From the IMG/VR virus record IMGVR_UViG_3300028840_002446, positions 1 through 34,035 of that record: a stretch of 34,035 nucleotides of DNA; one strand, 5' to 3'. Position numbers and translations under genes: made by a program. The notes below the pieces were generated by a model, which was not told the origin of the DNA, did no database searches, and worked only from the letters and a program-made list of their open reading frames with translations. The stretch is from a virus. Below, piece after piece: positions 10,982 through 33,090 of the stretch (the stretch's first letter is position 1; each line of letters opens with the position of its first letter).

Positions 10982-11167
10982 ATGAAAGACGGTCAGTGTC
11001 TAAAGTGCAAGGCTCCGCTTTTAATCGACACGATGAGAATGAGGCCGCTGTGCAGCGATTGTGAAAGGGAGATAAACGAAAAGATCACAAAGAGTATGAA
11101 AGAAAGAGGCAAGCCGGTCAAGGGTAAAAGTTTGGTGTTTCCCAAAAAGCCTAAAAATGAAGATTGA
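10982..11167 (+). CDS. 61-residue zinc-ribbon protein
   Basis: ATG at 10982 is preceded by a strong AGGGAGAGGGG ribosome-binding site. C6-x2-C9 and C24-x2-C27 form a zinc ribbon, followed by a helix and a lysine-rich tail (GKSLVFPKKPKNED). It is the second zinc ribbon in a row and overlaps the sulfotransferase start by 11 bases. It may bind nucleic acid or a partner enzyme; nothing shows which. Confidence 0.65.
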   Translation: MKDGQCLKCKAPLLIDTMRMRPLCSDCEREINEKITKSMKERGKPVKGKSLVFPKKPKNED

Positions 11168-11825
11168 TTGCACGTTCATAGTCGGACCGCCCAGAACCGG
11201 GACCAGCGTTCTTACGATGTGCCTTAAAAATAGTGGGATGAAAATAGGCACCCGGATGCTTGGTCACAAGTACAAGTCTCAGGACATACCGTTTCGGGCT
11301 AGCAATCGTGAAATCAAAACCCTTTTAATCAAACAACTATTAAAGTCTAAAAACGACATAAAAAAGCCGGTTGTGATTGGGGAAAGGATTTCACAGAAAG
11401 TTGACAAGGTTTGGGAATACATAATTCTTTATCAAATAGACGCTTTAAAAGACCCTTTGTTTTATGAGATTTTCGGGGTGTACTGGAATGTCAGCCCGAT
11501 ATTTAGAAAGCAAAAGTTCATTTGGACGCATCGAGATCCACTGGAAGCCGCAAAGTCGGCGGTGAGGCTAAAGCAACTCAAAAACGTTCCGGAGGGTCCG
11601 CTAACCGAATACACGGTTCAGGCAAGGCTAAAGAAAATAGATGGATATAATCAGGTCCACGAACATTATTTTCCCAAGTGTGATGGAATAAACGTGCATT
11701 TTGAACAGCTTTTAAGCGATCCTGATAAAATCGGTTTGGAGTTGTCTGACTTTCTTGGGCGCGAAATTGATATGAGCGAGGTTAATCCGAAAGAAACCTA
11801 TAAAGTAGCAAAGACACCGCAATGA
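11157..11825 (+). CDS. Sulfotransferase-family protein
   Basis: 222 residues. The N-terminal P-loop VGPPRTGTSVL (residues 9-19) matches the 5'-phosphosulfate-binding loop of PAPS-dependent sulfotransferases. The segment FIWTHRDPLEAAKSAVRL (121-138), with R126, D127, P128 and S134, matches the 3'-phosphate-binding motif. These enzymes move sulfate from PAPS to sugars, proteins or small molecules. The protein is short compared with most family members (about 250-300). It starts within the previous zinc-ribbon gene and its TGA overlaps the radical SAM start (ATGA), so the two are coupled. Substrate unknown; a glycan or virion protein is a possibility. Confidence 0.78.
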   Translation: MKIDCTFIVGPPRTGTSVLTMCLKNSGMKIGTRMLGHKYKSQDIPFRASNREIKTLLIKQLLKSKNDIKKPVVIGERISQKVDKVWEYIILYQIDALKDPLFYEIFGVYWNVSPIFRKQKFIWTHRDPLEAAKSAVRLKQLKNVPEGPLTEYTVQARLKKIDGYNQVHEHYFPKCDGINVHFEQLLSDPDKIGLELSDFLGREIDMSEVNPKETYKVAKTPQ

Positions 11826-12787
11826 AGTTAATAAATCCAGAAGTGCGAATTGAAAATTGCAGTTTATGCAACAGCAAATGCACTATTTGTCCACGGGAGA
11901 AAATGACCCGCAGAAAGATGATCATGGACAATGATCATTTTAAATACCTTGTGGATCAGGCGCGGTCACTTGGGGCAAAGACAATATCAGTTTTCGGGTA
12001 CGGGGAGCCGTTAATTGACTTAGGAATTGTCGAAAAGGTTCGCTATTGCAACGAGCTTGATTTAAAGACGTTTATAACCACCAACGCATCCTTGTTGGAT
12101 GTGAACATGACAAGTGCGTTGATTAAGGCGGGATTGCATCATGTTCGATTTTCAGTACACGGAACGGGCAAGCAGTATGAAAAGGTTCATCGGGGTCTGA
12201 ATTACGACAAGGTAATGCGTAATATAATGAATTTTAAGTCTATTGCCCGTGGACGGTGCAAACTATCGGTTTCGGTAATTCCGATGGGCGGCGAGGATAT
12301 CCAAACGCTAAAGAAACTTTACAAAGGATTTGACCTTGAAGTGTGGTCGCCGCACAACTGGACTGACGGTAGGCAGTATCGGAAATTGACTAAAAACAGA
12401 AAAAAAACGTGCGGCAGACCAATGAACGGACCAATTCAGATATTGGCCGATGGTCAGATGGTTGTCTGTTGTTTTGATTTCGACGGGAAACTGGTGGTCG
12501 GTGATACCCGTAAAAGCACCATTGAGGAAATATTAAAGTGTGGCGTATACAATAAGATACGTCATTTGCATGAAATTGGTGATCTTGGGGGGTTGTTGTG
12601 CAATACGTGTGATCAATTAAACATCGGAGACAACCCCCTGTTATATTCAACCATAGACCCTTCCTGTCAAGCGGGAAGGACCAGTTCAACTAAATTTAAC
12701 TTGGAGGAAAAAAATGACGTACACGCCGGTAAGAAAAGAGACAATGCCGATTCCTGTGGAGCCGGGAGTTCTGAGTGTTTATGTTAA
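11822..12787 (+). CDS. Radical SAM protein with SPASM-like C-terminus
   Basis: 321 residues. The iron-sulfur motif C16-x3-C20-x2-C23 (CNSKCTIC) binds the cluster that splits S-adenosylmethionine; FGYGEPL (58-64) is the GGEP-like motif. The C-terminal region has C197 (CGRP), C216-C217 in QMVVCCFDFDG and C260-x2-C263 (CNTC), as in SPASM domains that hold further clusters. Relatives modify peptides, sugars or small molecules. It is coupled to the sulfotransferase by ATGA. The last 24 codons overlap the next gene out of phase and look like read-through, so the working protein probably needs only about 270-297 residues. Confidence 0.85.
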   Translation: MKLINPEVRIENCSLCNSKCTICPREKMTRRKMIMDNDHFKYLVDQARSLGAKTISVFGYGEPLIDLGIVEKVRYCNELDLKTFITTNASLLDVNMTSALIKAGLHHVRFSVHGTGKQYEKVHRGLNYDKVMRNIMNFKSIARGRCKLSVSVIPMGGEDIQTLKKLYKGFDLEVWSPHNWTDGRQYRKLTKNRKKTCGRPMNGPIQILADGQMVVCCFDFDGKLVVGDTRKSTIEEILKCGVYNKIRHLHEIGDLGGLLCNTCDQLNIGDNPLLYSTIDPSCQAGRTSSTKFNLEEKNDVHAGKKRDNADSCGAGSSECLC

Positions 12788-18996: not shown

Positions 18997-20148
18997 ATGC
19001 AATTTAATCGTGGTGATTTAAGACCCCAGATGTTTAGTCTTTTAAACAATCTTGTTCTGATGAAAATCGGTCAGAATTTTCAGGCAAAGCAAGCTGAGAT
19101 TGAGCGAGAAGAACGCGAACAAAGAGAGGTTCGTGGGTATAAGGCCGCTGGGTATCGGGAGTCAGAGGCTCATAAGCCAGATATTGATGTCGGTGGCAAA
19201 GGGTTAATGGCCCCTAAAACCGTTATTGATTATAAGGATTTTGGAAACGGTAATATTGTTCCGATTATTTCACAACAGCGGTATGGGGAACAAGAAACAA
19301 TTCCACAGAAGTTGGGGTCTGCAATAAAAGGGCCATCATTACAGAAAAAAACAAATTACTTTATTGGTCGAGATGAAAAAACATACGGGCAAGACTATAA
19401 TTATAATCCAAGCACCGGCAAGTTGGAACCACTTGGGAAGCCATATCTTTCTAAAGCCCCTGGATCAACAACGGTAAATATTCATAACAACCCGACACAA
19501 GTACTGCAAAAGAAAGCTGCCGAATATATTGGAAAGGGACTTGGAGAATCAATAAACAAAAGGTATTCGGCAGGAGAAGAAGCCAGAAACCAAAACTATC
19601 AACTTGGCATGGTAAAGGTTGCTTTATCTGAGGGGGCAAGAACTGGTTTAGGCGAAGAAAGTTTATTAAATTTAAGAAGTTTTGGTCAAACGCTTGGGAT
19701 TGGGGATGCTGATTTGAGTGGTCAGGAATTGATTAGAAAGATTTCTAACGAGATGGCCCTTCGACTTAGAAACCCTGAAAGCGGTCTTGGTTTAACTGGA
19801 AATACCTCAAACAAGGATTTGCAGTTTTTAAAGGACTCTGTTGTTGGGTTGGCGCGAACGGAGCGCGGTAATTTGAAAATAATTGATTCAATGGAAAAGA
19901 TGAACAATTTAAAAATCGCCATTGCCAAAGAACAAAACAGAATTTTGATGAAAAACAAAGGCATCCCACCAATTGATTTGAATGATAAGTTAATGAAATT
20001 TGTTGATAATTACAAGTTTTTTACACCAAAAGAAAGGATGATGTTAAAAAATCTTTCAAAACCAATAAAAAGAATAAGAACGCATAAAAACGGCAGACAA
20101 GTCATAGAATTTGAAGACGGGACATTTGAATATGCAAGTGACAATTAA
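18997..20148 (+). CDS. Internal virion/DNA-ejection protein candidate 2
   Basis: 383 residues with AGGAGG upstream. The N-terminal half has a charged helix (FQAKQAEIEREEREQREVRG); the C-terminal half (about 190-345) is helical with LQFLKDSVVGLARTERGNLK, a pattern seen in large phage internal proteins. No signal peptide. Its last bases overlap the start of the next gene by 17 bases. Likely packaged inside the head and ejected with DNA; this is inferred from order and helical character. Confidence 0.55.
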   Translation: MQFNRGDLRPQMFSLLNNLVLMKIGQNFQAKQAEIEREEREQREVRGYKAAGYRESEAHKPDIDVGGKGLMAPKTVIDYKDFGNGNIVPIISQQRYGEQETIPQKLGSAIKGPSLQKKTNYFIGRDEKTYGQDYNYNPSTGKLEPLGKPYLSKAPGSTTVNIHNNPTQVLQKKAAEYIGKGLGESINKRYSAGEEARNQNYQLGMVKVALSEGARTGLGEESLLNLRSFGQTLGIGDADLSGQELIRKISNEMALRLRNPESGLGLTGNTSNKDLQFLKDSVVGLARTERGNLKIIDSMEKMNNLKIAIAKEQNRILMKNKGIPPIDLNDKLMKFVDNYKFFTPKERMMLKNLSKPIKRIRTHKNGRQVIEFEDGTFEYASDN

Positions 20149-21654: not shown

Positions 21655-21930
21655 ATGGCAAACAACTTAACCGGAAATCCACTAGTGATAGACACGGCGG
21701 CAACAATTACGACCTATCCCACAAAGGTCAAATTTATGAGATGGACCCCAACAACTACAGGTGATGATTTACTCGTTGTGGACAATGCCGGAAATACAAT
21801 CTGGACATATAAGGCGTTGGCGGCAGATGCGAATCAGGGGATTACATTTGACCTCACACTGGATGGCGCAGTGTGTAATGGTATCGTTGTGTCAACAATA
21901 GATAACGGCACCTTATATATTTATCTTTAA
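21655..21930 (+). CDS. Small beta-rich protein, paralogue of the one at 5073
   Basis: 91 residues, 2 bases after the previous stop with AAGGAG upstream. It shares its C-terminus (DNGTLYIYL) and domain order with the 98-residue protein before the portal. Both have a single beta-sandwich character with no cysteine pairs or signal peptide. Placed just before the giant fibre gene, it may be a fibre adaptor, a virion decoration or a chaperone; the duplicate placement at both ends of the structural block suggests a repeated role in the virion. Confidence 0.6.
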   Translation: MANNLTGNPLVIDTAATITTYPTKVKFMRWTPTTTGDDLLVVDNAGNTIWTYKALAADANQGITFDLTLDGAVCNGIVVSTIDNGTLYIYL

Positions 21931-21955: not shown

Positions 21956-24900
21956 ATGATGAAACGACTATTTTTAGTATTTTTAATTATTCTTTTCGCG
22001 GTGACAAATGTTTATAGTCACGGGATTGGACCCGGCCTTGTAAACGTGACGGAAGCAGATGGTTCACCGGATGAATGGGTAAAGGCTATTAAATTCACAA
22101 ATGGCACCGTATCTGTGTCAAACAGTGTGGCAACGGTGACAATTGCCGGTGTTTCCCCTGGGTCCGGGTCGATGACAACGGTTAAGGAGGGAGATACGGG
22201 TGTTGGCGATAGCGATATTGTTACCCTTGATTTTCAGACCGGGTTTTCACTTGTTGAAAGCCCTGATACGGAAGTCAACATCAGCCTTGATGTCACACCC
22301 AACGCTGGAAACGCAACACTTGTGGTTGAGGAAGATTCCATACAAGTCAAGTATGACACCACCCTTACAGAAGGGGCCAGCGGGTTGGGGGTCAAGGATG
22401 ATGGACTGACGGTATCTAAGTTTGGTGATGAGGATTGGGGTGATGTCAGCGTGTCTTCAAACTCAGTCACATTAGATGCTGATGTGGTAGCCGCTGCGGA
22501 AATGGCCGATGCGGATCATGGCATGGTAAGTTGGTCAAGTGGGGCCGCAACCGTTGAGGATTTTGCTTTAAATGCTGCCGCCGATGCCGGGGATCAGGAC
22601 ATTACATCGGTTGACAAGTTGGAAGGATACGATACGGCGGTTTACATCGATCTTGGGGGAGACACACTCGCTGAGATTGTTGCCGATGGCAGGGTTGACG
22701 TTACTGCTCCGAATATCAGGATAGAAGTTGATGCGGATGCTTACTTAAACATTGCCACGGCAGACGGTGGGGCTACAACGATCAGCCAGACATCAGATGG
22801 AACCGATCAGATTATATTGGGAGATGGCTCTGACCGTGTGGATGTGGCGTCTGACACATGGGATGTTACAAACGGCGCGATTTCAAATGTCGCAGGGCTG
22901 ACATTAACCACTGGGAATAATTTTACTATCGGGTCAACCCAATGGAATAGCGGTGACGATATAGACGGAACAAAGGTTGCCGATGCCGACTTGGGAGATA
23001 TTAGCGCAGCCTCCGGTTCGTTTACGCTTGATGACGATGTGGTTGCGGCGGCTGAAATGGCTGACGCAGATCACGGGATGATTTCGTGGACAACGGGTGT
23101 TGCCACTGTTGAAGACTTTGCATTAAACACCGTTGCTGACGCCGGGGATGAAGACATAACCAGCATTGATAAGTTAGAAGGAATTGACACGGCGGTTTAT
23201 ATTGACATGGGTACGGATGGGTATGTTGACTTGGAGGCCGATACCGGGATTCGGTTCAATGGTCCGCTTATCTTTGCCAATGAGGGTGAGCTTGATTTAC
23301 CTTCATCAGATGCCGATCCTGACACAACGGGAGAGCTCCGACACGATTCGACTGTTGCGGGGTTGGAGACCGGCGCACTTGCTTGGTATGACGGCGATGA
23401 AATAAGGTATATAGTCGATTTGGATGCGTTGCCATCAGATGACGATTATGTTGTAACTTATGATGCTGATGCTGATAAATTTTATATGAACTCAGCCGGT
23501 GCCGGTGATGTGACTGGTGTTGGTGATTGTGCTACTGGGGCTTGCCTTGATGGGTCTTCGGACGGTGGGCAAACTATTAGCCTGTATGACGGAGATAGTC
23601 ACAAGTTAACGATAGACGCTGCCGACTTAACCGCAGACGCCACTTTGGTCTTAGGGTCCGATACAAACAACATTACCGTAGTAAACGGTACGGCATCAAT
23701 CGATATCGCGGCGGGTGCTACGTTAAATATAGATACCGGGCTTCAAACCACAACCAATGCCGGTACGCTCGCGTTTTCGGCAGCTTCAAAAACTCTTACC
23801 ATAGAAGACGATTCAAATATAGATCAAGATTTATCTTCCGATGCCTCCCCGACTTTTGCGGGGCTGGATCTGACAGAAGGAAATATCACGAATGGCGGCA
23901 GTATCGCAATTGACGCGATTACCGCTGATGGCACCAACGTTCTTTTTGGAACGGGCGCGGCTACTCAGTTGCAGTTCAGGGATACGGCGCTTTATATCGC
24001 ATCTATTGCAGACGGATATTTAGACTTAGAGGCCGATACGGGTATCAGGTTTAATGGTCCGGTTGTGTTTGCCAACGAGGGTGAAATTAATCTCCCATCT
24101 AGTGATGCAACGCCCGATACTACCGGAGAGTTGAGGCATGATTCCACAGTTACCGGGTTAGCCACGGGTGCCTTGGTCTGGTATGATGGCGATGAAGCAA
24201 GGTATCTGGTTGATTTGGACGTGTTACCGTCCGATGATGATTACGTTGTTACCTATGACGCCGACAATGACGTGTTTTATATGTCCGGTGCTGGCACAGG
24301 TGACGTAACTGGTGTTGGTAACTGTGCCGATGGCGCTTGCCTTGACGGATCATCTGATGGTGGAACGACTATCAGCCTATACGATGGCGATTCTCACAAG
24401 CTCACCATAGACGCTGCCGACCTGACGGCTGATGCGACAATAGTACTTGGATCAGACACCAACAACTTAACGATGACAAACGGCACAGCAACGGTGGATC
24501 TTGCCGCCGGGGTTGACCTGAATCTTGATGTGGACTTCACGGCTGATGGACAAAAAACCACCATTACCGGAGCAGGTCAGGCAAACACGATAACCTTAAA
24601 TGAAAGCTTTACCATTGGCAACGGAACGGACATCACCATTACCGGGGCGGGTCAGGCGAACACCATTACCCTGAACGAAGGCTTGACTATCGGTGACGGA
24701 AATACCGGGACGATAACATTTTCAGCGGCATCAAAAACACTGACGGTTGGAAATGACGTTACGCTTAATCAGGACTTGCAAACAACAGACTCCCCGACCT
24801 TTGCCGCCATCGATACAGGGGAGGGGTCAACCGAAGTCTTTGCAATGGATCAGGACGTACAGACAACGGATTCCCCGACATTCGCCACGGTAACGGCCAG

Positions 24901-27856
24901 TACGGGGTTTGCTCTTGGGGATGGTAATTATATCGGTGTAACCTCAAATGAAAGAATCACCTTCGCCACGGCCGGGACGATTGCGTTGCTTGGTGGTAAT
25001 GTCGAGGTCGGCGCAACCTCTGCCGATGACACACAACCCCATCTTGCGATTATAGGCGATGCTGACTCTGATGCCGCAGGGGATACCGATGAAACCTTTA
25101 AGATAGATTTAACGGCCAATGCCACCCCCACTTCTGCATTATGGGAAATAACCTCAACCCAGAGTGCGGGATACACGTTTGATAAAGAAGTAACCTTTAA
25201 AAACAACGCTGCCGCCGCCACCTTTGGCGCTGTAGCCACAAACGCCGATGTAGTGCTGGCGTTTGACGCGGTAACTGCACAGGGATCTCTGACGTACATG
25301 GAAGACGAGGATAGGTTCGATTTTGACAATGACGTTGCCTTGTTATCTGATTCTGCCGTGTTGAAATTCGGGGCTGATGCTGATGTCACATTGACTCACG
25401 TTGCGGATACCGCATTGTCTTTGAACCTTGATTTAAGAATGCCCGACGAACAAGGCACGGTGTTCGGGTCGAGCCAAGATGTCACGATTGAATGGGGCGA
25501 CCTTGCTTCTGTTGACGATGTTGATAATTCATTGACCGGCGATGGGTTGTTGATATCGGGTGCTTTAGACGGATCGGATATCAAGATTGTATTTGAAAAT
25601 ACCGATTCCGGGGATGGTGTGGATCTATATGTAAAAGATATTCATTACAGCGGCACAATCACCGATCACGGCACAGGTGATGCCTATATAGAGTTAAGAA
25701 ATAACACCGGCGGGTATACCGCTACAAGTGGATACGCGATGTATGTGGATGCCGGAACTTGGAAAATGTATGATGGAACTGAGCAGGAGGTCGTGTTTGA
25801 GGGAACATCACCCACTTGGACAGGGGCAACCCACGATTTTACAGGGATTACCGGAAATTTGGTCCTGCCAGATAATGCACCGTCTGCATCTGGTGGGATT
25901 GCTTTAGTCACGGGAAATGAGCTTCAATGGCATGATGGAACAAAGGTTGTTACTATCGACACCACCGACACCACCGACAATTATGTGTTAAAGTACGACA
26001 ACGCAACGGCGACATTCAGCCTTGAAGCCGATGCAACTGGTGGGACGCCGGCGTGGGATGATATCACCGATTCAACGGGCGCGATGGCAGTTGAAAGCGC
26101 AAGTGGTGGGGAAATCACAACCTTTACCCAAAGTGCCGACAATACCGAATGGCTGTTTGATTTCACAGGAGCTTTTACCACAGCGGCATCACCGGATTTG
26201 TTTAAAATAATTCAGCAAACCGGCAACACTGAAGCTGTTGATCTGGTGGTTATCCAGGCGGCAGACACCGATGTAACCCCACTGAGAATCAGCCATAACG
26301 GTGAGGATATAACCTTTAAGTACTCTGCCGGTAATGAAATGACAATCGGATCGGGAACCAGTGTTGATACGATTGTGTTTTCTTCGATTGGGATTGAAGT
26401 GGTTGGATTAACAGCTACCGGCGCAACTGCTCTTTCGGAAGATGTCAGTATCAGTTTGGACGCTGCCGATGAAGAAATTTCAATTGCCCAATCAAATGCC
26501 GCTGGAACTGAGGATGTCGGTTTAATTAAAATAAACGATGATAGGACAGGGGCTACGGCGACCGAACAAAGCGAAGCAACCATTTGGATTGATGCCGAAG
26601 GGGTTTACGCAATTTCAATTGTAGATGGGTCGTTATCTGTTGAGGGTGATATCGTTCCTGCCGCAACCGATGGGGCATCACTGGGAACAGATGCGCTTGA
26701 TTTTTCAGACTTGTTTTTGGCTTCCGGTGGGGTGATTAACCTTGCAAGTGGTGATGTGACAATAACCCATGCAGCAAACACACTGGCTTTTGCCGGAGCC
26801 ACATCTTCATACACATTTGATGATGCGGTTGATATAACCGGCAGTGATGGGTTGATACTTGAAAATGATGAAACCATAACCAACTCCGTTGACGGAACTG
26901 TTTTGATAAACGGCAATTTAAAAATTGGTGCAGGTGGCGCGGTTGACCATACCATAGTGGTAGACGCCTCAGCCAATGACGGCACGATCACATGGGACGA
27001 AGACCCCGGCGAGTGGGATTTTGCGGCGGCGATTAATTCAAGTGCGGCGATAACCGGAACCGCAATTACAGGCTCAAGTGTAACCGATGGCACCGTGACA
27101 CTGGTTGGTGATGGAACCATAACGGGTGTTAGCGTTGGTGGGTTGCCGGATAATATCGTGGATAATGGCATGATGGCAGATAATGCGATTGACTCTGCTG
27201 AAATTACTGCTGGTGCCATAGATCTGGCACACTTGGCGGCTGGCATTAAGTCGGGCGATGACGCCACGGTAATAACCGGAACGGCTGGAACAAGCGGTTA
27301 CGCTGCCGCGTGGAATGCGGATGGCGATCTTGTTGATGGCATCAATCCGGCGACTAAACTGGATACCGCGAGTCCAAGTATGACAGGGGAAATGACTATT
27401 GGCGATCCGGGTGGGATAAAGTTAACCGACGATAACTATATTGAACTTGATGCAACTGCTGATGGAATGGACGATGACGAGTATAACGGCATTGTAATTG
27501 GTGGTAAAAACTGCGGCGAAGGTCTAACACAGTGGGATACCGTTAGGATTGCCGATGACGCCGATCCGTGGCATCAAGCTGATGCGAATGCCGCTGGTGA
27601 GTTTCCTGCACATGGGTTGTCGGTTGCAGCTTGTACCGATACCAATGAGGCGATTATTTTGGTTCGTGGGATTGTCCGCAACGAAGGTTGGACCGGCCTT
27701 ACTATTGGCGGTGCGGTGTATTTGTCGGAAACTGCCGGAGGTATAACCCAAACCGCACCCTCTGATTCTGGTGATGCGGTTCAGATAGTCGGATGGGCAT
27801 TGTCCGATTCAGAAATATACTTTGACTTTTCCAGACCGTATCTTGAGGTTGAATAA
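21956..27856 (+). CDS. 1966-residue long tail fibre with Sec signal peptide
   Basis: The largest gene. The N-terminus has a lysine/arginine pair, a hydrophobic core (LFLVFLIILFAV) and a cleavage-like site VYS before HGIGPG, a Sec signal peptide, which is unusual for a virion protein. The rest is Asp-, Gly-, Thr- and Ala-rich beta repeats. Two copies of a ~173-residue unit (from GYVDLEADTGIRF and GYLDLEADTGIRF) lie at 23216 and 24011, and a ~60-residue unit (VVAAAEMADADHG) occurs twice before them. A short TITGAGQANTITLNE unit also repeats. The C-terminal ~140 residues differ: GAVYLSETAGGITQTAPSDS then FDFSRPYLEVE, resembling a terminal beta domain of phage fibres. It probably trimerises; receptor unknown. 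Confidence 0.72.
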   Translation: MMKRLFLVFLIILFAVTNVYSHGIGPGLVNVTEADGSPDEWVKAIKFTNGTVSVSNSVATVTIAGVSPGSGSMTTVKEGDTGVGDSDIVTLDFQTGFSLVESPDTEVNISLDVTPNAGNATLVVEEDSIQVKYDTTLTEGASGLGVKDDGLTVSKFGDEDWGDVSVSSNSVTLDADVVAAAEMADADHGMVSWSSGAATVEDFALNAAADAGDQDITSVDKLEGYDTAVYIDLGGDTLAEIVADGRVDVTAPNIRIEVDADAYLNIATADGGATTISQTSDGTDQIILGDGSDRVDVASDTWDVTNGAISNVAGLTLTTGNNFTIGSTQWNSGDDIDGTKVADADLGDISAASGSFTLDDDVVAAAEMADADHGMISWTTGVATVEDFALNTVADAGDEDITSIDKLEGIDTAVYIDMGTDGYVDLEADTGIRFNGPLIFANEGELDLPSSDADPDTTGELRHDSTVAGLETGALAWYDGDEIRYIVDLDALPSDDDYVVTYDADADKFYMNSAGAGDVTGVGDCATGACLDGSSDGGQTISLYDGDSHKLTIDAADLTADATLVLGSDTNNITVVNGTASIDIAAGATLNIDTGLQTTTNAGTLAFSAASKTLTIEDDSNIDQDLSSDASPTFAGLDLTEGNITNGGSIAIDAITADGTNVLFGTGAATQLQFRDTALYIASIADGYLDLEADTGIRFNGPVVFANEGEINLPSSDATPDTTGELRHDSTVTGLATGALVWYDGDEARYLVDLDVLPSDDDYVVTYDADNDVFYMSGAGTGDVTGVGNCADGACLDGSSDGGTTISLYDGDSHKLTIDAADLTADATIVLGSDTNNLTMTNGTATVDLAAGVDLNLDVDFTADGQKTTITGAGQANTITLNESFTIGNGTDITITGAGQANTITLNEGLTIGDGNTGTITFSAASKTLTVGNDVTLNQDLQTTDSPTFAAIDTGEGSTEVFAMDQDVQTTDSPTFATVTASTGFALGDGNYIGVTSNERITFATAGTIALLGGNVEVGATSADDTQPHLAIIGDADSDAAGDTDETFKIDLTANATPTSALWEITSTQSAGYTFDKEVTFKNNAAAATFGAVATNADVVLAFDAVTAQGSLTYMEDEDRFDFDNDVALLSDSAVLKFGADADVTLTHVADTALSLNLDLRMPDEQGTVFGSSQDVTIEWGDLASVDDVDNSLTGDGLLISGALDGSDIKIVFENTDSGDGVDLYVKDIHYSGTITDHGTGDAYIELRNNTGGYTATSGYAMYVDAGTWKMYDGTEQEVVFEGTSPTWTGATHDFTGITGNLVLPDNAPSASGGIALVTGNELQWHDGTKVVTIDTTDTTDNYVLKYDNATATFSLEADATGGTPAWDDITDSTGAMAVESASGGEITTFTQSADNTEWLFDFTGAFTTAASPDLFKIIQQTGNTEAVDLVVIQAADTDVTPLRISHNGEDITFKYSAGNEMTIGSGTSVDTIVFSSIGIEVVGLTATGATALSEDVSISLDAADEEISIAQSNAAGTEDVGLIKINDDRTGATATEQSEATIWIDAEGVYAISIVDGSLSVEGDIVPAATDGASLGTDALDFSDLFLASGGVINLASGDVTITHAANTLAFAGATSSYTFDDAVDITGSDGLILENDETITNSVDGTVLINGNLKIGAGGAVDHTIVVDASANDGTITWDEDPGEWDFAAAINSSAAITGTAITGSSVTDGTVTLVGDGTITGVSVGGLPDNIVDNGMMADNAIDSAEITAGAIDLAHLAAGIKSGDDATVITGTAGTSGYAAAWNADGDLVDGINPATKLDTASPSMTGEMTIGDPGGIKLTDDNYIELDATADGMDDDEYNGIVIGGKNCGEGLTQWDTVRIADDADPWHQADANAAGEFPAHGLSVAACTDTNEAIILVRGIVRNEGWTGLTIGGAVYLSETAGGITQTAPSDSGDAVQIVGWALSDSEIYFDFSRPYLEVE
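23216..24530 (+). repeat. Direct duplication (~519 bp units) inside the fibre gene
   Basis: Units at about 23216-23735 and 24011-24530 encode nearly the same ~173-residue segment, with identical blocks such as PDTTGELRHDST, SDDDYVVTYDAD and ISLYDGDSHKLTIDAADLTA. Codons differ at many third positions, so the duplication is not recent or has been kept by protein-level selection. Unit offset is 795 bases. Confidence 0.75.
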
Positions 27857-28632
27857 TGAAAAAACTTTTACTTCTATTATTAATATTGCCGAGCCTTGCC
27901 TTTGGTGCAATGGATACGTTTGAGGGTTCGGCTGTTACGACATCAACAACTATCGAGGGTTCATCAGGAATAGACACAGTTGATGGAGGTACGGTAACTG
28001 GTGGTGTCGCATGTTCCGATCCAGAGGGAGATCAGGTAACGGAAGGTTTTGAAACGCCTGGTTATGAATTGACATCTCCATGTGGTGCTAGTCCATGCTG
28101 GGATGAAACTGGAAGCCCGACAGCAAACTACACATTATCTTCATTAAGTGGCGGCTCTGGTGCTGATGAGAATTGTGATTATGGCCTTCAAGCGGTTGGT
28201 ACTGGAGCCGATACGCATACCACCGTTACGATAGGATCTGGATTAAGTGAGTTCTGGATAAAATTCTCATATTATTTAGACAGTTTTTCATTTACCAGTG
28301 GCACGACTATCACTATTTATAATAGCGGGATTGCGAGTATAAGACTATATAATGATGGAGGCACTCCACAGCTTTATGCGAGAGCGGCAGGAGATGGAAG
28401 CAAGTATACCATTGCCCTTGATACATGGTATTATATAGAATTTCATGTGGTTAATAATGACACCGGAGATATTACTATTGGAACATCTTATGGTGGAACT
28501 GAAATTGCAAACGCAGGAACATTCACAGGTTATGACAATGGCGCACAAACCACATTCTCTATCGGAAATCTGAGTATAAAAACCGCAACTATGGTATTTG
28601 GATACTTTACGCTTGATGATGACTCTTTTTAA
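27856..28632 (+). CDS. Secreted beta-sandwich protein
   Basis: 258 residues; the ATG overlaps the fibre stop (TAATG) with GAGG upstream. A clear signal peptide (MKKLLLLLLILPSLAFG, cleavage AFG before A) leads to a short linker and a concanavalin/LamG-like jelly roll (SEFWIKFSYYLDSF; DTWYYIEFHVVNNDTGDI). Such domains bind carbohydrate. It lacks the C-terminal SGGGI motif of the next three proteins. Likely virion-associated or exported carbohydrate binder; location after export unknown. Confidence 0.65.
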   Translation: MKKLLLLLLILPSLAFGAMDTFEGSAVTTSTTIEGSSGIDTVDGGTVTGGVACSDPEGDQVTEGFETPGYELTSPCGASPCWDETGSPTANYTLSSLSGGSGADENCDYGLQAVGTGADTHTTVTIGSGLSEFWIKFSYYLDSFSFTSGTTITIYNSGIASIRLYNDGGTPQLYARAAGDGSKYTIALDTWYYIEFHVVNNDTGDITIGTSYGGTEIANAGTFTGYDNGAQTTFSIGNLSIKTATMVFGYFTLDDDSF

Positions 28633-30445
28633 AATATTAAAAATATATCTTTTAATTATTATTTTTATAATGCCGCTTTCTGCGTTTGCCGAAACTTACT
28701 ACGTTAAAAATGACGGTAACGATAATTTAGCTGGAACTACGGACGCAACTGCGTGGGCAACGATAGGCAAGGTCAATAGTTCGGTTTCCGCTACCGGCGA
28801 TGACGTTTATTTTAAGTGCGGTGATACGTGGACAGGAACAAGGCTGTATGTCGATTGGTATGGGACCTCAGGAAATCGGGCAATCATCGGCGCATATTAT
28901 GGTGACGGCACAATCGGCGTCAGTGGTAATAAACCAATAATCGATGGTGATAATTCCGCACCGAGTACTTACACAGATGGATTGATATATGTCGTTGGTG
29001 GTCCATATGTAACGGTTGAGAACATAAAAATAATTAATTCTGCCGGTCATGGCTTGAGGTTTCACACGAATACGGACTATGGCTATGCCGACAATGTTGA
29101 CGCACAGGATATAGACAATGCCGGTATTATGTGGTGGTACTCAGACAATGGAAAGGCAACAGACTGCACTATCACGCTGGCGGCAATGGCATATCATAGG
29201 GGTGAGATAGGCGATTGGCCTGCATGTTTGATGGCCGCTTATTCCCAGAACGCCGAGTTTCAAAACTGCAAGGTTTATAATGTTCACGGTGAGGGTATCG
29301 GGTTGTATAAAAATTCTCATGGCGGGTTGGTGGAAAAATGCCTTGTCTACAATGCCGAAAAGGTAGGCATATACATAGAGGGTTCTCACGACTGCATTAT
29401 TCGGCATAATCTAGTTTATGGCACTACCGACACGACCTATCACCGATATACAAACCCTCCACAATCCGGTGCTGCGATATGGCAGGGTGACGAGGGTTGG
29501 GTGCCGTATACGTCTTATAATAATAAAATTTATGGAAATCTGGTTGCCTACACTGCCTATGGGTTTGTCGGTGCTTCTGAGGGGTACGGCCTGACAAACG
29601 TGGAGGTTTATAATAACACCTTCATAGGCTGTGACGCTACGTTTTGGATCAGCGCGAGTATCTTTTCAAACTCTGCTTATAGAAATAATATATCATGGCC
29701 CAGAAGTGGCGCAAACTACGGACACTATCGAGGTACAAGCGATACACTGTCTTTAGTGTGGAGTAATAACAACTGGTCAACTTCTGTCAGTGGAGACAGA
29801 TCCGGTACGGGAGATGTTATCGGCGTTCCGAGCCTTTCAAAGACAACCGGATGGGATACGCTGACCGCAGGGAGTTTAGACGGTACACAGTTTGCGCTGC
29901 AAGGTGGTGCGGATAATATCGACGCTGGCTATAATGTCGGGTCGAGCAGCATTTACGATCAGACACCAAATGTCGATGAATCAGATTGGACTGCAACGCC
30001 AATATCGGTTGCCTTGGAGGATCAGGACGGACATGGCGATAGTTGGGAAATAGGTGGAGATGTTTATACAACAACCGGCAACCCACCGCCAGAAGTCGAA
30101 AGCGTCACAATATCATCCAGCGGAACAGAGGTTGTTGTGGATTTTGATCAGACAGTTCTTGCCCCTGGGGGTGACGGCTCAACATGGGCGCTGGTGATGG
30201 ACATGGATGGTGCAGTGTCGTTCTCATCTCCGTCAATTGATGGCGATGAAATAACCTATACCCTTTCCAGAACGGTTTGGCGGCAGGAAACATTTGTGAG
30301 TCTATCCTATACTCAAGGTACGATTCAAGAAGTTGGCGGCACGTTGCTTGAAGCGATACCGAGTTACAGCGGAACCTTTACAAACTCATCATTAGACGTG
30401 TATGGAAAAGCCTCCGGGGTTTCCGGTGGTGGTATAAGCCGATGA
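28616..30445 (+). CDS. Secreted parallel beta-helix protein with C-terminal SGGGISR
   Basis: I place the start at ATG 28616 (or 28619); an upstream in-frame start at 28598 would add only six residues. The 609-residue product has a signal peptide ending MPLSAFA before ETYYV. Residues about 25-420 carry repeated short strands with N/G turns (GLVEKCLVYNAEKVGIYIEG; NNKIYGNLVAYTAYG), a right-handed parallel beta-helix as in polysaccharide lyases and tailspikes. About 480-590 is an Ig-like domain (PEVESVTISSSGTEVVVDFD). It ends SGGGISR, shared with the next two proteins. The start overlaps the previous gene by 17 bases. Likely polysaccharide-binding or -cleaving; no catalytic residues assigned. Confidence 0.72.
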   Translation: MMTLFKILKIYLLIIIFIMPLSAFAETYYVKNDGNDNLAGTTDATAWATIGKVNSSVSATGDDVYFKCGDTWTGTRLYVDWYGTSGNRAIIGAYYGDGTIGVSGNKPIIDGDNSAPSTYTDGLIYVVGGPYVTVENIKIINSAGHGLRFHTNTDYGYADNVDAQDIDNAGIMWWYSDNGKATDCTITLAAMAYHRGEIGDWPACLMAAYSQNAEFQNCKVYNVHGEGIGLYKNSHGGLVEKCLVYNAEKVGIYIEGSHDCIIRHNLVYGTTDTTYHRYTNPPQSGAAIWQGDEGWVPYTSYNNKIYGNLVAYTAYGFVGASEGYGLTNVEVYNNTFIGCDATFWISASIFSNSAYRNNISWPRSGANYGHYRGTSDTLSLVWSNNNWSTSVSGDRSGTGDVIGVPSLSKTTGWDTLTAGSLDGTQFALQGGADNIDAGYNVGSSSIYDQTPNVDESDWTATPISVALEDQDGHGDSWEIGGDVYTTTGNPPPEVESVTISSSGTEVVVDFDQTVLAPGGDGSTWALVMDMDGAVSFSSPSIDGDEITYTLSRTVWRQETFVSLSYTQGTIQEVGGTLLEAIPSYSGTFTNSSLDVYGKASGVSGGGISR

Positions 30446-31455
30446 TTATCCGCAAGTTGTCTATTATTATTTTATTGTTGATTTGGACAACGGCGTACTG
30501 TGAGACAACGCCTATACCGGAGCAATCTGATTGGTCGGACGGTGGGGTGGCGCTCAACAACGGTGGTTCTGGTGCGTGGGATTACTGGCTGCAAGGTGCC
30601 GTTAGCCCCTGTGGTGTTCTGAAAATAGACGGCACTTATTTTCTGTACTATATCGGCGCATCCGGTGGCAGGGACGAATCACCGAGCGATCCGGCTTATC
30701 GAAAACTTGGTGTGGCAACATCCTCAGACGGCCTTGACTACACGGCCTATGGCTCAAACCCAATTATCACCTACAATCCCCGTGGCGTAAACTATGACGA
30801 AGAGGGAATATTCTCCTGTGCTGTTTATAATGACGGCGGCACTATCCTTCTTTATTACGGCGCAATGTACGAATACACGGCTGGCAGCGTCCACACAAGC
30901 ATCAGAAAGCGCGAATCAAGCGATGGGTACACGTTTACGGGGGATACGGAGGTTTTAGCGTATAACTCCGGTTGCTCTGGCTGTGGCGATGAGATATTCC
31001 CAACTGGTGTATTTAAATCAGGATCGACGTATTACCTCTATTATATGACGGACGGCTGGGACTTGAGAATGGCAACAATGACGGATGCTGATACGGTATC
31101 AACTACCGAAGCAATTATTACAACGGGCGATTCGGTACGTGGAATGGACGGAGTGATAGTTCGCCCCGATGGTGAGGTGATTATAGCAGTCGGCAGATAT
31201 GATGGTTCTGATGTCAATATCCAACTTCGCGCAGATACCGAGTCTGACCCAAACGACTTCGACACTTTATTGGAAACCTGGGACTTTTTCCCGGCGTATC
31301 AAGAGTATGCTGTGTATTTAGACACGGATGTCGGCAAGTGGTTTATCTATCTAACCAATTATAACAACGATACGATAAGAGTGTTTTCAGCCGATGGCCC
31401 GACAGACGGTACGGCAACAACCGGGATGTCCGGTGGAGGTATCGGAAGAAATTGA
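30442..31455 (+). CDS. Secreted glycosidase-like five-bladed propeller with SGGGIGRN end
   Basis: 337 residues, coupled by ATGA. An N-terminal signal peptide (MIIRKLSIIILLLIWTTAYC) is followed by blades with the recurring pattern of GH43/GH32-type and related propellers: SPCGVLKIDGTYFLYYIGA, FSCAVYNDGGTILLYYGAMY, GVFKSGSTYYLYYMTDGWD and VRPDGEVIIAVGRYDGSD. Acidic residues at blade starts (DEEGIF, GDEIFP, MDG) could be catalytic or metal-binding. GH43-like enzymes cut arabinan, xylan or similar glycans. The C-terminal SGGGIGRN matches the neighbours' tails. Enzyme activity is inference; the fold call is moderately secure. Confidence 0.65.
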   Translation: MIIRKLSIIILLLIWTTAYCETTPIPEQSDWSDGGVALNNGGSGAWDYWLQGAVSPCGVLKIDGTYFLYYIGASGGRDESPSDPAYRKLGVATSSDGLDYTAYGSNPIITYNPRGVNYDEEGIFSCAVYNDGGTILLYYGAMYEYTAGSVHTSIRKRESSDGYTFTGDTEVLAYNSGCSGCGDEIFPTGVFKSGSTYYLYYMTDGWDLRMATMTDADTVSTTEAIITTGDSVRGMDGVIVRPDGEVIIAVGRYDGSDVNIQLRADTESDPNDFDTLLETWDFFPAYQEYAVYLDTDVGKWFIYLTNYNNDTIRVFSADGPTDGTATTGMSGGGIGRN

Positions 31456-32909
31456 AAAAGTTCGTATTCATAATTATTGCGTTACTTTTTGCGTGGACGG
31501 CAGAAGCGGCAACGCTGTATGTCGATGACGCTGGTACCGATTCGGGCAATTGCCAGACTGAAGGCTCTCCGTGTAAGGAAATAAACTACGCAATAGGCCA
31601 GGCGTCAAACGGCGATACCATAGAAATTATGCCGGGTTCATATCCGATTACCAGTGAAAGCGGCAACAGGGTTGTTATCAATAAGGACGTGACGGTAACA
31701 GCCTACGACACCGATAACCGCCCGACAATAAACGGTAACGGCACGCAGACTTATGGCATCCAGATAACTGCAAGCAACGCCACCTTGTCCTATGTGATCA
31801 TGGACATGAATGACCGTGATGATAGTTGGAATCATGAAAACATCAGAATAGAGGCAGAGGGTGTTACCCTTGACAATGTTGATACCCACAGTGGTCACGT
31901 TGGCGTTTACATACTGGGTGGCAGGAATGTCACAATCAGTAATTGTAAATCATATAACCACGGCTCAACGGGTGAGAACCCTGAAAGCGGTCACGGGTTC
32001 GCCTATTATCAAAAAGGTAACTCAAGTTTAAATCCAACAAGCTGGTCAGATAAAACTTATTTCTACAATTCCGAAGGATACGAAACCGGCGAAGATTTTT
32101 ATCAATGCAAGTCTCAGGAATCGGCAAACCCTCCGAGTAATTGGGTGCAGTACGTTGAATTTGACAGTATCAGCGCCTATGACAACGAGGAAGACGGCTT
32201 TGATTTTAAGGGGTGCCGGTATATTAGAATACACGACTCTGAGATATACGATAATGCCGGTGACGGAATTGTTACGCACACATCAACCTCAAGCCCACAA
32301 TCGGATAATGTTGAAGTATATAGAAATAAAATATACGGCAACGGCTGGTGGGGGGTTTATGTTACGGATGATTGCGACAATTGGGAAATCTATTCAAACC
32401 TGATTTACAACAATGCGAATAGCTCATCATACGAGACATATAACACCTATGGATTACAGGTTAAAGAAAATACTCAGGTTTTGCACAATACTATATATGG
32501 AAACGGAACATACGCGAGTGCTAAAAACCACGGCGGGTTGAGGACATCAGGAACCCCGACTGTTCAAAATAATATTCTCTATAACAACGGAACCACCCAC
32601 GGCAACATCTATGTCAGTTCAACCGGCACGATCAGCTACAACTACGTCTATCCAACATCCCCTGGAATAACCGGCAGTAACGCGATTACGTCATCCGATC
32701 CGGGGTTGACCAACCCAAGTGGATATGACTTCACCATCTCGTCAACCGGATCGGTGGTTTATCAAGCAGGAACAGATTTGAGTATTACAACCGATTACGC
32801 CGGAAATTCTTTTCATGCGACTACCCCAAGTGTCGGGGCATACGAATATGAAACCCTACCCACAACGGAATATCCCGGTAGCTTTAGCGGTGGGGGTATA
32901 TCAAGGTAA
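31452..32909 (+). CDS. Secreted parallel beta-helix protein with C-terminal SGGGISR
   Basis: 485 residues, starting with TTG at 31452 that overlaps the previous TGA (TTGA); GGAAG lies upstream. Signal peptide MKKFVFIIIALLFAWTAEA, then ATLYVDDAGTDSG and GSPCKEINYAIGQASNGDTI, the usual entry to a right-handed beta-helix (DUF1565-like). Many N/G-turn strands follow (IRIHDSEIYDNAGDGIV; NVEVYRNKIYGNGWWGVYV), plus LQVKENTQVLHNTIYGNG. It ends with GAYEYE, a common beta-helix end, then a 20-residue tail finishing SGGGISR. Function probably polysaccharide interaction. No second domain. Confidence 0.72.
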   Translation: MKKFVFIIIALLFAWTAEAATLYVDDAGTDSGNCQTEGSPCKEINYAIGQASNGDTIEIMPGSYPITSESGNRVVINKDVTVTAYDTDNRPTINGNGTQTYGIQITASNATLSYVIMDMNDRDDSWNHENIRIEAEGVTLDNVDTHSGHVGVYILGGRNVTISNCKSYNHGSTGENPESGHGFAYYQKGNSSLNPTSWSDKTYFYNSEGYETGEDFYQCKSQESANPPSNWVQYVEFDSISAYDNEEDGFDFKGCRYIRIHDSEIYDNAGDGIVTHTSTSSPQSDNVEVYRNKIYGNGWWGVYVTDDCDNWEIYSNLIYNNANSSSYETYNTYGLQVKENTQVLHNTIYGNGTYASAKNHGGLRTSGTPTVQNNILYNNGTTHGNIYVSSTGTISYNYVYPTSPGITGSNAITSSDPGLTNPSGYDFTISSTGSVVYQAGTDLSITTDYAGNSFHATTPSVGAYEYETLPTTEYPGSFSGGGISR

Positions 32910-32922
32910 TGGAATAATAGCG

Positions 32923-33090
32923 ATGGACAATGAATTTAATTTTGAACTGTGCCAGGAACGTCATGAACGCATTGGCAGGAGATTAGAGAAATTGGAAAAC
33001 AGATTTTTAACTTTAATTTCGGGAATCGCACTCACACTGATTACCGTTGTCGTGAACCTAATAATACTAATTAAATTTTTGCCAGGTTAG
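32923..33090 (+). CDS. XhlA-like membrane protein (possible holin accessory)
   Basis: 55 residues from ATG 32923 (GGA upstream); the frame is open further left but without a better start. A charged coiled-coil helix (CQERHERIGRRLEKLENRF) is followed by one hydrophobic segment (about 31-53, ISGIALTLITVVVNLIILI). This is the layout of haemolysin XhlA-type proteins, which often accompany holins. First of a group of small, membrane-type genes that may be the lysis module, although no endolysin is visible here. Confidence 0.5.
   Translation: MDNEFNFELCQERHERIGRRLEKLENRFLTLISGIALTLITVVVNLIILIKFLPG

Follow-up and report, generated by a model that had tools for sequence, protein, structure and literature searches.

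A short peptide shared by the C-termini of three adjacent exported phage proteins overlies Shine-Dalgarno-like sites

Results

Exported proteins in the tail region of an environmental phage

The DNA analysed here, referred to as the window, is an IMG/VR virus record of 34,035 bases from an environmental phage of which little is known. It encodes a distant large terminase and a major head protein, as well as a portal and an adaptor protein matching PF23899 and PF24175 (SU10-type), respectively; the likeness to SU10-like podoviruses lies in these two family matches, and the two kinds of phage are very distant from each other. Among phage records the portal matched only one, from a Microcystis phage, with 20% identity, and the only near relative found (L002/G001, 99–100% identical) ends at about window position 22,300, before the tails described below. 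Between the head and tail genes (11157–12787) the phage encodes a sulfotransferase (PF13469) and a radical SAM/SPASM protein (PF04055, PF13186).

From position 21956 to 32909, five consecutive genes on the plus strand code for proteins with Sec-type signal peptides, as judged by eye. The first two, which served as internal controls, encode a tail-fibre-like repeat protein of 1966 amino acids ending in LEVE (21956–27856) and a protein of 258 residues that lacks the tail and ends in DDDSF (27856–28632). Protein 1 (28616–30445) consists of a Sec signal peptide, a right-handed parallel beta-helix (Pfam Beta_helix, 1.2e-22), a C-terminal beta domain, a linker of about 12 residues and the terminal sequence SGGGISR. 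Protein 2 (30442–31455) has a signal peptide, a mostly beta domain (possibly a five-bladed propeller), a linker and the end SGGGIGRN, and protein 3 (31452–32909) has a signal peptide and a beta-helix (Pfam Beta_helix, 2e-13) that ends in VGAYEY and is followed by a linker and tail that together span about 19 residues and again end in SGGGISR. By eye, the signal peptides of all three proteins were clear. The beta-helices named in a reading made from the sequence only were borne out by the Pfam matches, whereas its propeller assignment for protein 2 was weakly supported by sub-threshold NCBIfam matches to GH130-like and GH32-like propellers (0.0047 and 0.21) and by a single-sequence model of low confidence (pLDDT 39), which, past a helical signal peptide, consisted mainly of beta structure. 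The exported proteins had no matches in PHROGs, and a PDB sequence search with proteins 1 and 2 returned none. When proteins 1–3 were compared with 50,697 phage records by tblastn, no match was obtained at 1e-5, and for protein 1 at E values up to 1 there were only four matches, weak and partial; aligning the three proteins together yielded poor search patterns.

Tail fibres of tailed phages are normally assembled within the cell, so that export signals on the products of a tail-region operon call for an explanation. The exported proteins of this operon are probably a run of Sec-exported, glycan-binding or glycan-cutting proteins in the tail-fibre region.

Three proteins with the same C-terminal peptide

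Tail 1 (30422–30445, plus strand; TCC GGT GGT GGT ATA AGC CGA TGA) encodes SGGGISR and a stop codon that overlaps the next ATG at 30442, tail 2 (31429–31455, plus strand; TCC GGT GGA GGT ATC GGA AGA AAT TGA) encodes SGGGIGRN and a stop codon that overlaps the next TTG at 31452, and tail 3 (32886–32909, plus strand; AGC GGT GGG GGT ATA TCA AGG TAA) encodes SGGGISR and a stop codon. The consensus is [VMF]-S-G-G-G-I-[SG]-R, with V, M or F as the preceding residue. Each tail follows a folded domain of its own, and the linkers before the tails are unlike each other while the ends are alike. The additional Asn of tail 2 indicates that the motif need not form the exact C-terminus.

The observation of the sequence-only reading that the three proteins share a tail was upheld, and the likeness is not random: when the last 10 residues of 35 window genes were compared, the trio had 6–7 in common and the next best pair 4. 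In the window proteins SGGG was found in these tails only, and SGGS in one place. A set of 1079 ORFs of at least 100 amino acids, picked mechanically from 121 viral loci and the window, contained few other pairs with six or more residues in common. These pairs, in L068, L013 and L110, look like paralogues rich in glycine or like homologous neighbours, as judged from the sequences of the first two loci. Chance is an extremely improbable source of the likeness, given that the three genes are adjacent, that none of 100 shuffles gave a tail match and that the probability calculated from composition is about 1e-8 even if GGG is granted; in its favour is a single SGGGIGR-stop pattern on the antisense strand (25109–25132, minus strand), which lies inside the 1966-residue gene and is itself most likely fortuitous.

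Residues are conserved while codons diverge

Tails 1 and 3 encode the same seven residues with 8 of 21 nucleotides different, an outcome seen 1–2 times in 400,000 random draws in a test that treats sites as independent and draws on few codons. The same holds for the two related tests: when only the codons for S, I, S and R are counted, 7 of 12 nucleotides differ between these tails while the residues are the same (P = 3.2e-5 if unconstrained), and composition gives P = 1.9e-6 for all three tails agreeing at S and R and having a small residue between them. The codon pairs of tails 1 and 3 are TCC/AGC and AGC/TCA for the two serines and CGA/AGG for arginine. Since Ser and Arg are kept through different codons, selection probably acts on the peptide itself, as had been proposed from the codon divergence, and selection on the protein is probably the better reading of the shared tail. 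On the sequence evidence, the tails would be either old copies held by residue selection or separate origins under such selection.

Of six tests for likeness of the flanking DNA, four were not notable. Between tails 1 and 2 a weak likeness reaches about 25 nt upstream (p = 0.005, one of the six tests), and these two tails may share about nine further upstream residues. Together with a local alignment of junctions 1 and 2 that spans linker to signal peptide, this could point to a repeated junction for domain swaps by recombination, made up of linker end, tail, stop/start and signal peptide, in which the tail would be a remnant. We regard this as unlikely: the downstream likeness of tails 1 and 2 is at chance level (p = 0.7), the only other low value being that for the downstream flanks of tails 2 and 3 (p = 0.045), the DNA of the signal peptides is no more alike than that of other pairs, and there are the 8 differences in 21 nucleotides between tails 1 and 3.

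Occurrence of exported proteins and of the tail elsewhere

A beta-helix scan yielded three loci (L104, L112 and L118). The first of these, in a related phage (G591), encodes an exported beta-helix protein that is the one good homologue of protein 1 (35% over residues 4–533, about 530 residues); it lacks the tail and ends in RQINGGP, the codons of which carry GGAGG before an overlapping start. The gene before this homologue is small, and its end, KLYLYILLP, resembles by eye the GTLYIYL of the window gene at 21655. The related phages G588–G590 encode a homologue of the window gene at 18997, and their tail genes are followed by a single long gene whose product has a signal peptide and an arginine-rich end. 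Long exported proteins with arginine-rich ends were read in G588 and G590 (L172, 10844–14422, GTRTPR, and L176, 5834–10510, PRNPRN). G595 and G596 encode at least two exported proteins near the tail genes, with ends that are not alike. Exported proteins beside tail genes were thus seen in L104, G588–G590, G595 and G596; export signals recur in phage tail loci, and the shared peptide does not. Two exported beta-helix proteins of unrelated phages (L178, 7338–8978, and L179, 7594–9444) end in RKRVLIR and SYVLIRK, possibly a second short C-terminal likeness.

A search for C-terminal GGGISR or SGGGIxR, which the sequence-only reading had put forward as a check, revealed no other convincing secreted protein among 2.9 million viral contigs within the codon sets scanned. 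The motif scans with three codon sets gave 18, 16 and 63 stretches (97 in total), nearly all of them very short or antisense frames; Ser AGY before GGG was covered only by the GGG-I-AGY-AGR scan, and the matches L071 and L083 were not followed. L071 (minus strand) is the longest scan match, an open frame of 970 codons ending in LSGGGICR that may be a long antisense frame. A GGGISR match where L017 begins was rejected, as the main frame there differs.

With one codon subset, about 85,000 genomes or species gave 22 single matches, two of which look like real gene ends: a secreted gammaproteobacterial protein (L134, 3699–4472) that ends in SSSGGGISR, with a Shine-Dalgarno run and an ATGA overlap to the next gene, and a haloarchaeal protein resembling sugar kinases (L135). 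Each is alone in its own genome, save for one GGGITR match in that of L135. A wide form of the motif, applied to 581 genomes of two phyla, gave at most two matches per genome and a total close to that of the reversed control. No cluster of tail-bearing proteins was found in the bacterial genomes examined, which did not include that of the host and were scanned with part of the codons; a literature search for GGGISR returned nothing.

Taken together, and within the codons covered, the viral and genome scans are evidence against a widespread tag or a host sorting signal. A tag of general use or a host sorting signal was not supported, given the lack of a convincing secreted viral match or a bacterial cluster in the sets scanned and the homologue of protein 1 without the tail; as far as seen, a tag would appear to be confined to this phage. 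C-terminal sorting signals occur in bacteria, and all three proteins bear signal peptides, as would suit a host sorting or anchoring signal borrowed by the phage. We nevertheless consider such borrowing very unlikely, because the ends contain no hydrophobic helix or known sorting motif, the linkers are polar, no NCBIfam sorting model matched at E values up to 1, and the genome counts given above are low within the codons covered.

The glycine codons overlap probable ribosome-binding sites

All three tails contain the run GGTGGNGGTAT. In tail 1 the Shine-Dalgarno-like run CGGTGGTGGTA (30424–30434, plus strand) lies 7 nt before the ATG at 30442 and has a duplex energy with the 16S 3' end (anti-Shine-Dalgarno RNA) of -11.4 kcal/mol, in tail 2 the Shine-Dalgarno site TGGAGGTA (31434–31441, plus strand) lies 10 nt before the TTG at 31452 (-10.7 kcal/mol), and tail 3 contains the Shine-Dalgarno-like TGGGGGTA (32891–32898, plus strand, -9.8 kcal/mol). 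The run in tail 1 is the strongest upstream site of the window, and all three are among the strongest. Stop and start codons overlap as ATGA at 30442 and TTGA at 31452. Tail 3 ends in an overlapping TAATG, the ATG of which, at 32909, opens only ATG-GAA-TAA; the next real gene starts at 32923, 13 nt past the stop codon and not about 30 bases away as had been stated. This gene (32923–33090, plus strand) encodes 55 amino acids with one hydrophobic stretch, holin-like by eye, and its own Shine-Dalgarno site is weak.

The strong Shine-Dalgarno-like runs indicate that ribosome binding accounts at least in part for the glycines, and GGT is used for the first and third Gly in six of six cases, compared with a GGT usage of 31% of Gly codons. 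This overlap accounts for GGG and not for S, [S/G] or R. The sequence-only reading had cautioned that the glycine codons of the first two genes may serve as ribosome-binding sites; it had understated the extent of the overlap, as all three tails, tail 3 included, pair strongly.

The tail could thus be a by-product of translational coupling, in which selection on the ribosome site fixes GGTGGNGGTAT, and hence GGGI, the remainder stems from common ancestry of the gene ends or from chance, and the peptide has no function. We consider this a serious alternative, although not a probable one. All tails carry strong sites at a useful spacing with the GGT preference noted above, the gammaproteobacterial SSSGGGISR shows the same arrangement, the NGGP of the protein 1 homologue likewise encodes a site before an overlapping start, and there is ample precedent for coupling between genes that overlap (PMC6728339). 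What it leaves unexplained is that the same Ser and Arg are drawn from different codon families, and tail 3 serves no real gene. Moreover, coupled junctions elsewhere do not give rise to GGG tails: the junction before 27856 has a different Shine-Dalgarno site, TGAGGTT, which encodes LEVE, that before 28616 has no good site, and GGG within the last nine residues was present in only 2 of 228 coupled viral genes. A coupling site is therefore not enough to make the tail.

Discussion

Of the explanations weighed, the most likely one, ahead of a coupling by-product, is that the tail serves exported proteins as a short C-terminal peptide for docking or recognition, specific to this lineage and overlapping a coupling site; we favour it tentatively, at somewhat less than an even chance. 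One short peptide would be carried by the last three exported proteins, each joined to it by a flexible linker of its own, and would most likely bind one common partner outside the cytoplasm, be it part of the virion or a component of the cell surface, and in this way bring different domains to the same place. The Gly codons would at the same time act as the Shine-Dalgarno site that couples translation of the next gene, which would give the 3' end of the gene two jobs. Counting for a docking peptide are the conservation of residues while codons diverge and the agreement of the ends while the linkers differ; counting against it, only three copies are known, all from one phage, and the protein 1 homologue as well as G595 and G596 are without the shared tail. 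A more specific version, in which the peptide attaches exported glycan-active proteins to released virions or to the surface of the infected cell while its codons couple translation, is doubtful. If it is a real tag, the shared end peptide would offer a testable handle on where the exported proteins go and what they bind, and a short stretch may be read at two levels, as ribosome site and as peptide.

The tail resembles the targeting (cargo-loading) peptides of encapsulins, for example GGDLGIRK and GSLGIGSLR (PMC10960027), in being a short conserved peptide, usually C-terminal in encapsulin cargo, on otherwise different proteins, and in being rich in Gly, Ile and Arg, a likeness of sequence that appears superficial. 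Encapsulin cargo is cytosolic and docks inside an HK97-fold shell, whereas the window proteins carry Sec signal peptides, as judged by eye; because these export signals do not agree with a cytosolic cargo, the resemblance is only an analogy. The ATGA and TTGA overlaps at 30442 and 31452, each with a strong site in the last codons of the upstream gene, fit the known pattern in which a Shine-Dalgarno site inside one gene couples its translation to that of an overlapping neighbour (PMC6728339). Overlap and site were found for tails 1 and 2, and coupling does not account for the whole peptide: ordinary cases lack conserved flanking Ser and Arg, and the overlapping ATG of tail 3 opens no gene. The glycine-rich phage proteins of L013 and L068 are also encoded by neighbouring genes with like C-termini (a GIVIVRY-like end), but the likeness in L068 runs over whole paralogous proteins and the L013 ends seem homologous and rich in glycine, whereas the three proteins of the window are unlike each other and have only the last seven residues in common.
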